From Baffinella frigidus (taxonomy: Eukaryota; Cryptophyceae; Cryptomonadales; Baffinellaceae): 26,905 nucleotides of DNA. Positions 1-15,253 of the stretch are shown piece by piece. Position numbers and translations under genes: made by a program. The stretch is from NCBI GenBank assembly GCA_026770585.1, contig MU647049.1:137471-164375 (forward strand), written 5' to 3'. A model generated the notes under the pieces. That model was not told the origin of the DNA and made no database searches. It worked only from the letters and a program-made list of their open reading frames with translations. Position 1 is the first letter of the stretch, and each line of letters starts with the position of its first letter.

Positions 1-113
1 GGGTTTAGGGTTTTGGGTTTTGGGTTTTGGGGTTTAGAATTGAGGTCGGCGGGGGTTTAGGGTTTAGGGTTTAGGGTTTAGGGTTTAGGGTTTAGGTTGA
101 GGGGGGTGGAGGG
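1..113. repeat. Telomere-type TTTAGGG repeats in the IFT81 intron at the left edge
   Basis: GGGTTTA units with GGGTTTT variants, interrupted near 36-52. It lies downstream of the IFT81 exon ending at 116, so it is intronic. The CCCTAAA strand is the sense strand of IFT81. Position at the window edge could suggest a chromosome end, but identical arrays occur inside introns throughout, so I do not call it a telomere. Confidence 0.85.
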
Positions 114-115
114 AC

Positions 116-601
116 CGTCTCGAGTTTCTCTTTGAACTCCTCGAAGGAGCCAGGGTACTGGAAGAGGACCTGGTTTCGGGTTTCCGGTTCAGGGTTTCGG
201 GTTTCGGGTGTAGGGTGTAGGGTTTCGGATTGCGGGTATGGTGTTTCGGGTTTCGGGTTTCGGGTGTAGGGTTGTAGGGTGTAGAGTTGTAAGGTTTCGG
301 GTTTCGGGTTTCGGGTGTAGTGTCTAGGGTGTAGTGTGTAGTGTGTATGGTGCAGGATGTAGGGTGTAGGGTGCAGGGTGTAGGGTGTAGGGTGCAGGGT
401 GTAGGGCGTAGGGTGTGGGGTGTAGGGTGTAGGGTTGCAGGGTGGAGGGTGGAGGGGTGTAGGGTGTAGGGTGCAGGAAGAGGACCACGTTGAGGAAGTT
501 GAACATGCGCGCGGCCGTGACGTCCATCCCCTCATCTCGTACATCGACCTAGTATGGAGACCTTTGTTAAACTGAGAGAGAGAGAGAGAAAGAGAGAGAG
601 C

Positions 602-634
<33 letters not shown>

Positions 635-2739
635 CGAGAGCGAGAACGAGAGAGAGAGAGAGAGAGAGACAGCGAGAGAGAGAGCGAGAGAGAGAGAGAG
701 AGACGTCCATCCCCTCATCTCGCACGTGCACCTAGCGTGCGAGAGATAACGAGCGTTAATTGATCGAAACCAACACCGCCACCATGTTAATAGGGTAATG
801 TACCAAAAATGGGGTAGTTAGGCCTACGGCATTGCCTAGGACCTCCTACTGTAGGCCAAAATCCCAGGACTTTTTGGTCATAGGAGCCCTACGGCCTACG
901 GTAGGCAATTCCGTAGGCCTAACTACCCCATTTTCAGGCCGTTAGCCTATGAATGTATTCCCATCCGTGAAGGCCTGTAGGGCTTGAGGTGTTCGGCGGT
1001 TTCCGCACCGTTTTACGGTTTAGTGGCGGGGTTTAGGGTTTCCACACGGTGGACTACGGACCTTTCATCAAAAGTCAACTTGACCCGCGGTAATTAACTT
1101 TGAGGCTTTTCTCAAGCAGGTTTGGTCACGCCCCCCCCCCCCCGAATCGGGGGGCCCCGAAACCCTCGTAGTCTACCAAGTGGAGGGTTGGGGATTTAGG
1201 GTCAGAGTTGACGATGTAGGGGTTAGGTGCCCGTGAAAGTCCACCGGCCCCAGCATCGACCAATCACCTAGCTATGTACTCTCTGTCTCAGTCTATTTGG
1301 GCTCCCCAAATTGGTGAGCCCGGGCTCTTTTCCGCCGCTGACGGACTTGTACCGCAAACCGTGCATGCCAACTTGAGAATGGTCAGGCAACCCGAGTGAG
1401 GCAGAGCTAGCTACCAGCTTTCACAGCAGGACCAAATCCTAGATCGGTCTCGCCGGATTCCGGGGAGCTAGTACCAGAAAATACAACACCCGAAGTGGTT
1501 TGGTCTTTCTGTGAGGGCTGGTGGACAGCGCGTGCCACTTAGCAGCGGCCGAGTTCCATTTCCCCCGGATATCCCGGGGGAAATGCGGTTAGAACCCAAT
1601 GCAAATGGATAAGATTCCAGTACAAATCCTTTAGATGGACTGTATCCGTGAAGCCCCCGGTGGCTGCCAAGTGGGACTGCTGCCGCCCCTCATCCACAGC
1701 CACGTCCAGTCCTGCAACGCTGAGGTGTGTCCCTCCTCCCCGCTCCCCAGCTACGCTAGACTTGTGCGCCTGGGGGGGGGGGGGGTTAGCCCGTCCGAGG
1801 ACTCGAACGGCAAGCCAAGGACCTCGCAAAGGGTGTGCATGCTGAGAAGGGGGGAGTGTTCACAGTAATACAGGCGTAGAGACTCTGGCAACGTACGGCG
1901 TGGGGACCCGTGCTGCTGTCCACTTGCCCACTGTCCACCGCAGGCACCGCGAAAACGCGTGCCGCTAGGGGTGTGCGCTCACCTCATGGTCCTTCGAGAG
2001 GTGTGCGAAGACGGTGTTGAGGGTCTCGAGGAGTTCCTGCTTCAGGTTTTAAGGTTTAGGGTTCAGGGGTTAGGAGCTCCTGCGAAGAGTTAGGAATTAG
2101 GGTTTGGGGTTTGGGGTTCAGGGTTTAGGGTTTGGGGGTTTTAGGGTTGAGGGGTTAGGGTTTAGGGGTTTTCGGGGTTTCGGGTTTAGGGGTTCGGGTT
2201 TAGAGTCTAGGGGGGTAAGGGTTTAGGGGTCAGGGGTTTTAGGTTTTAGGGTTTATGGGTTGTGGTTTAGGGGTTTTAGTAGGGTTTGTGGTTCAGGGGT
2301 TTGGGGTTTGGGGTTTGGGGTTTGGGGTTTGGGGTTTGGGGTTTAGGGTTTAGGGTTTAAGTGTCAGGGGACCTGCCCGGTCTTCTCATCGAGGGTCGCG
2401 AGCGTCAGGTCCTGCTTTAGGGTTTAGGTTTTAGGGTTTGGGGTTTAGGGTTTAGGGTTTAGGGTTTAGGGTTTAGGGTTTAGGGTTTAGGGTTTGGGGT
2501 TTGGGGTTCAGGGTTCAGGGTTTAGGGTTTGGGGTTTGGGGTTGGGGGTTGGGGGGTTAGGGGTTAGCGGTTAGGGTTTAGGTTTCAGGGTTTAGGGGTT
2601 GGGGTTTAGGGTTTGGGGTTTAGGGGTTAGCGGTTTTGGTTTAGGTTTTGGTTTTAGGGGTTAGGGGGTGTTCCTCCTCAAACTTGAACTCCACAAGCTT
2701 GTCCTTGATCAGGTGGATGTTCGCCGGGTACCGCTCCAT
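116..2739 (-). CDS. IFT81: Intraflagellar transport protein 81 (IFT81), N-terminal CH-domain part, 5 exons, runs off the left edge
   Basis: Exons read on the minus strand: 2739-~2674 (start ATG 2739-2737, MERYPANIHLIKDKL...), 2411-2373 (DLTLATLDEKTGQ), 2036-1983 (ELLETLNTVFAHLSKDHE), 548-486 (VDVRDEGMDVTAARMFNFL..), 169-116 (VLFQYPGSFEEFKEKLET). All internal exons are whole codons (phase 0). Joined, they follow the N-terminus of IFT81 as I recall it: a short helix, a 'xLxTxDxxxxxELLxxLNxVxA' segment, then 'VDxRxExxxxTAxRMxxxL' and a Y-P/K-P turn. In known IFT81 this calponin-homology-type domain works with IFT74 to bind tubulin cargo in the IFT-B complex of flagella. Splice sites are GT-AG except the first intron, whose donor is unclear (coding seems to run to GAG at 2674, followed by GAACAC). 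The rest of the protein (coiled coils) must lie to the left. Identity rests on recalled motifs only; exon boundaries of exon 1 are the weakest part. Confidence 0.72.
170..485 (-). repeat. IFT81 intron made entirely of variant telomere-type heptamers
   Basis: On the sense (minus) strand the intron starts GTCCTCTTCC at 485, passes directly into CCCTACA, CCCTGCA, CCCTCCA and then CCCGAAA heptamers, and ends in ACCAG at 170. There is essentially no other sequence. The first 10 bases of the intron repeat the first 10 bases of the next exon (169-160), so the array is bracketed by a direct duplication. Confidence 0.88.
571..702. repeat. (GA)n microsatellite with GC interruptions
   Basis: About 130 bases of GAGAGA with occasional CGAG units, in the IFT81 intron between exons 3 and 4. 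It ends at the degraded copy of exon 4. The apparent Ser/Leu- and Arg/Glu-rich open frames here are translations of the repeat. Confidence 0.93.
697..737 (-). pseudogene. Degraded copy of the start of IFT81 exon 4
   Basis: Minus strand reads ..GCTAG|GTGCACGTGCGAGATGAGG.. and continues GGATGGACGTC, nearly the same as the true acceptor and exon start at 549-515 (ACTAG|GTCGATGTACGAGATGAGG..). It breaks off into the GA microsatellite, so only the acceptor and about 30 exon bases survive. Confidence 0.75.
806..934. mobile_element. Palindromic MITE-like element (129 bp)
   Basis: Left arm AAAATGGGGTAGTTAGGCCT and right arm ending AGGCCTAACTACCCCATTTT are perfect inverted repeats at the tips, with a less perfect interior built of CCTACGG/CCGTAGG units. 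There is no coding capacity. It lies in an IFT81 intron. Confidence 0.8.
1261..1412. repeat. Dispersed repeat family 'GTTGACGG-TTTGTACCGC' (copy 1)
   Basis: A block with TTGGTGAGCCCGGGCTCTTTTCCGC, then CTGACGGACTTGTACCGCA and GCCAACTTGAGAATGGTCAG, then GAGTGAGGCAGAGCTAG. The same ordered motifs recur at 5727-6020 (inverted orientation), 11700-11760, 22840-23010 and 23464-23612. Inverted subterminal pieces (AAGTTGAC / GTCAACTT) suggest a non-autonomous DNA element. Confidence 0.6.
1533..1676. mobile_element. MITE-like element, 'CCACTTAGCAGC' family (copy 1)
   Basis: Begins TGCCACTTAGCAGCGGCCGA and ends CCGGTGGCTGCCAAGTGGGA, imperfect terminal inverted repeats. A second copy with the same ends and the shared internal string CTGTATCCGTGAAGCCCC lies at 23892-24226. 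An internal palindrome TTTCCCCCGGATATCCCGGGGGAAA occurs near 1560-1584. Confidence 0.72.
1901..1957. repeat. Direct repeat of about 57 bp shared with 3185-3241
   Basis: Both copies contain GCTGTCCACTTGCCCACTGT followed by CC-CGCA-GCACC-CGAAAA. One copy is in an IFT81 intron, the other in the divergent promoter region upstream of Z-ISO. Confidence 0.75.
2037..2372 (-). repeat. IFT81 intron 2 built of telomere-type repeats with a false acceptor
   Basis: Between exon 2 (donor GTCCCC at 2372) and exon 3 (acceptor ..GAAGCAG at 2037) nearly all sequence is CCCTAAA, CCCCAAA, CCCGAAA and similar heptamers on the sense strand. Near 2070-2090 the sense strand reads CTTCGCAG|GAGCTCC, a copy of the acceptor and first bases of exon 3 (GCAG|GAACTCC). 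Confidence 0.85.
2412..2664 (-). repeat. IFT81 intron 1 built of telomere-type repeats
   Basis: TTTAGGG, TTTGGGG and TTAGGGG units on the plus strand fill the whole space between exon 1 and exon 2 (acceptor AAAGCAG at 2412). It includes a run of perfect TTTAGGG at about 2447-2492. Confidence 0.9.
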
Positions 2740-3547: not shown

Positions 3548-13610
<10,063 letters not shown>

Positions 13611-13728: not shown

Positions 13729-13848
13729 TACACGGGTACCTCGCTCATAAGAATGCACCCACCCCCTAGGACCACCATACGGCCCTAGGCATAGGCCTGC
13801 TGTAGGGTCTAAGGGGGCGCAGTTTCTTATGAGCGAGGTACCCCTGTA
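13729..13848. mobile_element. 'GGTACCTCGCTCATAAGAAA' MITE, copy 1
   Basis: Tips TACACGGGTACCTCGCTCAT and ATGAGCGAGGTACCCCTGTA; interior of CCTAGG/CCCTAGGC units. One of six copies in the window, each about 121 bp and nearly self-complementary, without coding capacity. Confidence 0.93.
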
Positions 13849-13948: not shown

Positions 13949-14071
13949 TACAGGAGTACCTCGCTCATACGAATGCGCCTTCCCCTAGGACCCAGCAGTA
14001 GGCCTATGCCTCTAGGGCTCTATGGTGGCCCTAGGAGGGTTGCAGTTTCTTGTGAGCGAGGTACCCCTGTA
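13949..14071. mobile_element. 'GGTACCTCGCTCATAAGAAA' MITE, copy 2
   Basis: Tips TACAGGAGTACCTCGCTCAT and GTGAGCGAGGTACCCCTGTA. Only about 100 bases from copy 1. Confidence 0.93.
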
Positions 14072-15039: not shown

Positions 15040-15253
15040 TGCGCCTTGCGCCCCACGCCCCACGCCCCACGCCCAGGCCCAACGCCCCACGCCCTACACC
15101 CCACGCCCCACTCCCCACGAATAGGCGATCCGTCCCACGCCCTACGCCCTACGCCCTACGCCCTACACATTACGCCCCACGCGCTACACCCTTCATCATA
15201 TGTACGCCCTACGCCCCACGCCCCACGCCCTTCCTGTGCGCCCTACGCCCTAC
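15040..15253 (+). repeat. Heptamer array of CCCTACG / CCCCACG
   Basis: About 25-30 degenerate seven-base units GCCCCAC, GCCCTAC and CCCTACA. This is a telomere-type variant with G in place of the last A. It lies outside the supported gene models. Pro/Arg-rich frames across it are artefacts. Confidence 0.88.

Follow-up and report, generated by a model that had tools for sequence, protein, structure and literature searches.

How does an intron made mainly of telomere-type repeats come to lie between two copies of the same coding bases? The question is raised by the fourth intron of a gene near the beginning of the window, by which we mean the whole stretch of 26,905 nucleotides that was analyzed. 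A preliminary description had proposed that a staggered break in an exon was filled with telomere repeats and became an intron at once. The origin of new introns is still debated, and a review names transposons, exon duplications, and break-repair filler among the sources (PMC3443670). At this locus, the filler is recognizable, its orientation has a simple reason in splicing, and one case has intact ends.

The gene occupies positions 2739 to 116 on the minus strand, where five modeled exons, all in phase 0, encode the N-terminal domain of IFT81. The peptide matches the Pfam domain IFT81_CH (E value of 9e-10; residues 8 to 89 of 93) as well as solved IFT81 chains (E value of 1e-5; residues 24 to 79), the latter match covering four residues past the intron 4 junction (75|76) and no more, and on this similarity the gene is identified as IFT81. 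The peptides used for the Pfam, solved-chain, and protein searches, both for IFT81 and for the neighboring Z-ISO gene, carried one residue more than the final exon ends give. Eight other open reading frames in the window had no match in Pfam. Exon 4 (548 to 486; VDVRDEGMDVTAARMFNFLNV) and exon 5 (169 to 116; VLFQYPGSFEEFKEKLET), both placed by the gene model and the IFT81_CH match, lie with the intervening intron 4 (485 to 170) exactly where the preliminary description had put them on the minus strand.

Intron 4 is a predicted GT-AG intron of 316 bp that holds one GT and two AG dinucleotides in total. It opens with GTCCTCTTCC and closes with CCAG, and exon 5 opens with GTCCTCTTCC again, as had been described; the duplication, claimed to span at least 10 bases, is exactly 11 bp long (GGTCCTCTTCC) when the G ahead of both copies is counted, and, if two mismatches are allowed, the likeness continues into the first repeat units at 17 of 19 positions. 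The left copy (476 to 486, minus strand) supplies the last G of exon 4 and the donor GT. Heptamers of the CCCTACA/CCCGAAA type follow (171 to 475), and their final A begins the acceptor AG, while the right copy (160 to 170) supplies the G of that acceptor and the beginning of exon 5. The donor GT therefore does come from the duplication, as proposed, but the acceptor is half repeat and half duplication rather than a product of the repeat side. A telomere-like intron between duplicated exon bases in IFT81 is confirmed as an observation. Tandem duplication of an AGGT exon segment was rejected as the sole source of the intron, the exon copy amounting to only 11 (at most 19, with two mismatches) of the 316 bp.

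The statement that the insert consists only of such heptamers was roughly right, since 89% of the bases of intron 4 fall in heptamers with at most two mismatches to CCCTAAA (mean of shuffled sequence, 29%; maximum, 42%), but the canonical unit itself has 0 occurrences there as an exact word. TTTAGGG is the telomere repeat type of many algae. A greedy parse, which misses units that are out of register, yields 35 units, including 13 CCCTACA and 9 CCCGAAA, with a tendency toward blocks: 11 adjacent pairs are identical, compared to a shuffled mean of 6.6 (fraction, 0.025). Such partial homogenization is what an expanding satellite produces and would suit an old intron whose contents were replaced by spreading heptamers, the 11-bp repeat having arisen independently when the exon start underwent a small duplication. 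We regard this account as unlikely. The copy sits exactly at the donor of intron 4 with no intron sequence upstream of it, and because it is flush with the donor, a duplication made at an existing acceptor would have needed a further precise deletion.

Is the duplication itself beyond chance? When every donor was aligned in splice register to its own acceptor exon, the longest exact run was 11 bases in intron 4 and 2 to 5 bases in the other 13 introns, and the 182 mismatched donor/acceptor pairs that served as controls gave runs of at most 7. This rules out chance as the source; the 11-bp duplication is real and, in splice register, unique among the 14 introns. In a looser test over whole introns, the score of intron 4 (13) equals the single best of 340 controls, and the strength of the duplication rests on its exact position. 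A chance resemblance or a wrong gene model can accordingly be set aside as highly improbable. The IFT81 junctions are predictions from DNA, and intron 1 needs a GA donor, both of which would suit an error in the model; however, homology runs on over the intron 4 junction, which predicts its splicing, and, 316 not being a multiple of 3, the reading frame continues only if intron 4 is removed.

A flanking repeat can accompany introns of many kinds. In Drosophila, repeats of at least 5 bp are present at 19 of 77 gained and 26 of 100 conserved introns and so are not commoner at gained ones (PMC3296678), and imperfect direct repeats of 4 to 30 bp (mean, 11.4) are reported near the borders of many intron classes (PMC11782384). 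Because of these counts and of how widespread border repeats are, a flanking repeat says little by itself about whether an intron was gained. The exact, flush match of 11 bases outweighs repeats of the Drosophila type, yet it is a single case. In Daphnia pulex, new introns have been ascribed to blunt or staggered double-strand breaks that leave repeats of 4 to 12 bp, and internal repeats were found in 55 of 90 new introns versus 100 of 617 older ones (PMC4202315). Intron 4 resembles these break-repair introns in its terminal repeat of 11 bases. Unlike in Daphnia, the filler in four of the introns studied here is a telomere-type heptamer; the stem "telomer" occurs 0 times in the main text of that report.

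On balance, we lean toward an origin of intron 4 by insertion of telomere-type heptamers into a continuous exon during the repair of a staggered break. Such a break in the IFT81 exon would have left an overhang that, once filled in on both sides, gave the copies of GGTCCTCTTCC that flank the insert; a block of heptamers would have been inserted at the break and the ends joined. The left copy would then provide G|GT, and the final A of the repeats together with the first G of the right copy would provide AG. Splice sites would have been ready at once, and the mRNA would read as it did without the insert. We infer the break repair as an event, the order of these steps, and splicing in vivo; what the locus displays directly is an insert between duplicated exon bases that splicing would remove with no change to the mRNA, and to that extent the proposal of an instant intron is supported. 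In mouse ES cells, small tandem duplications arise when CST-Pol alpha-primase fills in 3' overhangs (PMC8355091). They are similar, in that an overhang is duplicated at a break and the same machinery fills telomere overhangs; the parts of that work consulted describe no telomeric filler.

Intron 4 has companions of the same make. Four of the 14 complete modeled introns in the two genes are 89 to 96% heptamer, namely, intron 4, IFT81 intron 1 (2412 to 2673, minus strand; 262 bp; 96%), IFT81 intron 2 (2037 to 2372, minus strand; 336 bp; 91%), and Z-ISO intron 9 (12820 to 12972, plus strand; 153 bp; 93%), compared to 5 to 43% in the other ten. IFT81 intron 5, of which the start lies within the window (1 to 115, minus strand) before the intron leaves it, is 85% heptamer there. 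The terminal matches of the companions are short (4 bases in IFT81 intron 1, 5 in intron 2, and 2 in Z-ISO intron 9) and within the control range, and none of the three has the terminal repeat of a break-repair intron. This counts against our preferred explanation: a terminal duplication above the control range is present in only one of four heptamer introns. The idea that a flanking duplication marks heptamer introns as a class did not hold up, and the 11-bp duplication was rejected as a signature of every such intron.

The unit composition of these introns bears on where the filler came from. CCCTAAA is present as an exact word 14 times in IFT81 intron 1, 10 times in intron 2, and 5 times in Z-ISO intron 9, a content that favors a sharper form of the break-repair origin, in which telomerase itself extended a 3' end of the broken DNA ahead of fill-in, with the variants a later development. 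Mammals offer a precedent, sequence derived from telomerase RNA having been reported at 1 of 66 loci (PMC7215372). Intron 1 would fit synthesis by telomerase; intron 4, in contrast, has runs of identical variants in place of the canonical unit, a pattern that copying from an existing array also explains. Since intron 4 lacks CCCTAAA, synthesis of its filler by telomerase, part of the original suggestion, is left unproven and finds no support in this intron. We consider the telomerase version quite improbable, and the lack of canonical units in intron 4 points instead to variant arrays that were copied or that expanded later.

All four heptamer introns are C rich in the sense strand, with an antisense heptamer coverage of 0. 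For IFT81 introns 1, 2, and 4 and Z-ISO intron 9, in that order, the sense strand holds 0, 1, 1, and 1 GT and 2, 5, 2, and 2 AG dinucleotides, whereas the reversed introns would hold 37, 45, 65, and 21 GT and 25, 33, 31, and 10 AG. The C-rich sense strand is thus almost devoid of GT and AG and offers little competition with the flanking splice sites. In the two genes, all 11 merged heptamer tract spans are also C rich in sense. This orientation is what a splicing filter would leave, but because the tracts are confined to two genes, the bias is suggestive and not proven. The branch-site consensus is CTAAAC-like, and the C-rich heptamer strand would offer such sites. The site of Z-ISO intron 9 may likewise be read as a GG with TAAACC...AAACCA placed between, which would again give G|GT and A|G at the junctions.

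These patterns allow a broader reading that we put forward tentatively and hold to be rather doubtful: that telomere-type DNA gives rise to a class of introns in this lineage and that only inserts that are C rich in sense survive in exons. The latter restriction would arise because the C-rich strand is nearly free of GT and AG, would offer such branch sites, and would convert G|G at the target to G|GT...A|G. Were this so, telomere sequence would be preadapted as an intron. Among the titles and opening parts of abstracts listed from the open-licence literature, no report of telomere-repeat introns as a class appeared.

Whether the heptamer introns are young can be judged in part from relatives. 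The 93-residue IFT81 peptide, used as a protein query, matched three short predicted proteins (P0121, P0122, and P0123) and nothing else. P0122 and P0123, from contigs of 2100 and 1911 bp, share 91% identity over 59% of the query and are unbroken where heptamer introns 1 and 2 would lie. Both end in SKDHE|VKP, where exon 4 of the gene in the window would give VDV, so that past the boundary of intron 3 the exon 4 sequence is absent. This pattern would be expected of genomic DNA with intron 3 and without introns 1 and 2; a transcript that retained intron 3 would match it too. The position of IFT81 intron 3 (549 to 1982, minus strand; 1434 bp; not heptamer) is accordingly common to these relatives, and since introns 1 and 2 are missing from them while this ordinary intron is shared, introns 1 and 2 look lineage specific. 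Exon 1 ends at FEE|D in the same two relatives, which is why intron 1 (2673 to 2412) is modeled as a GA-AG intron.

The missing introns lend partial support to an origin by telomere-type filling, in that a relative with an intron at the site of intron 3 lacks these heptamer introns, and they argue against an old intron with replaced contents, being of the same make as intron 4. Empty sites were found at the protein level only, for the sister introns 1 and 2. Loss in the relatives would resemble gain here, few taxa are involved, and the polarity is not proven; the pure repeat content of introns 1 and 2 would argue for youth. P0121 (79% identity) reads across all four IFT81 intron sites, including NFLNV|ILFQYPG, and aligns ungapped over the intron 4 junction to its end. 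Its source may be a transcript, which leaves intron 4 itself unpolarized. In a search of viral_contigs for relatives, IFT81 had one match (56% over 27 residues), which was left out of the comparison, and Z-ISO had none. Within IFT81 intron 3, an inverted repeat at 787 to 953 has 52-nt arms that are 85% complementary and 63 nt apart.

The neighboring gene (3548 to 13610, plus strand), modeled with 11 exons, encodes the 15-cis-zeta-carotene isomerase Z-ISO (NnrU domain; E value of 1e-23). With its later peptide, the two best of 120 listed matches were an MMETSP transcript (76%) and Guillardia theta (72%), and these share with the query the nine residues NSLLGTEGV, which are a gap in the other rows that cover the region in a 24-row alignment (a few rows do not cover it). 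The host genome is most likely nuclear and cryptophyte. Intron 2 of Z-ISO (2004 bp) probably hides one short exon; between exons 2 and 3, one short piece of coding sequence is missing from the gene model, and a protein search with the peptide of exons 1 and 2 gave 629 candidates, none of them scored.

Around both genes, exon borders recur as second copies in their own adjacent introns. At a score of at least 13, this is the case for 12 of 28 borders versus 1 of 340 controls (Fisher P = 4e-14), which rules out chance as the source of the copies as a set, and at a score of at least 14, it is the case for 11 borders and 0 controls; the 28 borders were taken with exon ends that are 3 nt off the final model at IFT81 exon 1 and Z-ISO exon 10. 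The copies are 18 to 64 bp long, and two have in-frame stops. Of 13 heptamer tracts, 4 have flanking direct repeats (score of at least 11) versus 20 of 400 random pairs (P = 0.003).

In Z-ISO, the acceptor and start of exon 7 are duplicated around heptamers (10463 to 10486 and 10626 to 10649), as are the acceptor and start of exon 11 (13308 to 13331 and 13530 to 13553). The exon 6 acceptor (8890 to 9249) has two upstream copies, a clear one at 8992 and a weak one at 8890 (score of 8, in the control range), with heptamers in both gaps. The donor region of exon 2 is present three times (4057, 4335, and 4472; span, 4057 to 4494), the first gap being ordinary DNA and the second heptamer. At the 3' end of IFT81 intron 2 (2029 to 2083, minus strand), a 12-bp near-duplicate (2083 to 2072 and 2040 to 2029; 11 of 12 identical) surrounds 31 bp of heptamer with a score of 9.5, which is within the control range. 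IFT81 intron 3 carries a second copy of the acceptor with the beginning of exon 4 (34 bp; score of 24; from 735 to 711 and 552 to 528 onward, minus strand); a (CT)n microsatellite together with a short piece of unique sequence separates the two copies, giving the same architecture with a different filler.

Among 15 listed duplication pairs, the filler is 81 to 99% heptamer in seven and 0 to 29% in eight; the pairs were listed by hand, the heptamer pairs partly by way of their own tracts, so the 7:8 ratio is not unbiased, and two of the seven (the end of IFT81 intron 2 and the copy at 8890) score within the control range. Since duplications filled with other DNA are no fewer (8 of 15), the underlying process appears to be a duplication combined with some filler, of which telomere-type DNA would be one kind and apparently a favored one. 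A succession of staggered breaks of the Daphnia kind would account for the recurring exon-border copies and their filler in this part of the genome. The recurrence of heptamer filler between exon-border copies in Z-ISO speaks in part for the telomere-fill origin of intron 4; at the same time, most of the other copies lie within introns, away from the donor, as the replacement of contents in an old intron would lead one to expect. Under the break-repair origin that we prefer, most such events would only lengthen an existing intron, and the intron 4 event, having no intron beside its site, would make one.

Further copies were observed in Z-ISO. The end of exon 6 (exon at 9233 to 9316) is followed in the next intron by three graded copies (9445 to 9552, 9741 to 9797, and 9907 to 9936), the second with an in-frame stop. 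An intronic copy of the end of exon 7 (11059 to 11078) continues with GATCATCTG-GTGCAT, which is the start of exon 8 joined on directly, and then with AACCC repeats; it is possibly a relic of an intron-less state, few bases being involved.

Could a mobile element account for intron 4? An introner-like element that carried heptamers and transposed with a target site duplication would explain the splice sites, since introners take one or both from target duplications or insertion sites, leaving the mRNA unchanged as here (PMC9860276). Introners differ from the present introns, however, in that here there is no common element sequence, the four heptamer introns having no common nonrepeat ends, and only tandem repeat is found; no inverted repeat of at least 12 nt was found within 160 to 495. 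Nor is the length of the duplication constant, at 2, 4, 5, and 11 bases at intron ends and 12 to 24 bp around internal tracts. We judge a mobile element very unlikely.

Parallels to the proposed break repair come from telomeric repeats at internal sites. In the horse, such repeats have been inserted at breaks, with a duplication alone at 3 of 66 loci (PMC7215372), and short interstitial telomeric sequences of mammals resemble the IFT81 case in that a repeat is inserted at a break, sometimes with a target duplication. Human exons harbor none of the interstitial telomeric loci described there, and the authors anticipate that such a repeat would introduce stop codons whichever way it was oriented. 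The IFT81 insert differs from these loci: it is a predicted intron flanked by coding bases, and its units are noncanonical. Among algae, lineage-specific introns of Amorphochlora amoebiformis occupy proto-splice sites, and half have simple repeats (PMC12730881). They are similar as gained algal introns with simple repeats; that repeat is (AT)n, and neither a duplication nor telomere-type filler is described in the parts of the report consulted.

The findings suggest chromosome-end-like DNA as a source of new introns, in a C-rich orientation that is predicted to be cleanly spliceable. Were the pattern genome-wide, intron gain would be tied directly to break repair or telomere maintenance, and the view in mammalian work that an exonic telomeric repeat should introduce stop codons would have an answer.

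The window holds other repeats as well. A (TA)n tract (12495 to 12728) that includes a 10-N assembly gap lies between an intronic copy (at about 12290) and the modeled start of Z-ISO exon 9 (12762). Downstream of Z-ISO are two MITE-like elements (13729 to 13848 and 13949 to 14071) with 25-nt inverted ends, 96% and 88% complementary, around TACCTCGCTCATA. Outside both modeled genes, a heptamer array of the CGCCCCA/CGCCCTA type (15049 to 15253) illustrates the extent of drift from CCCTAAA.
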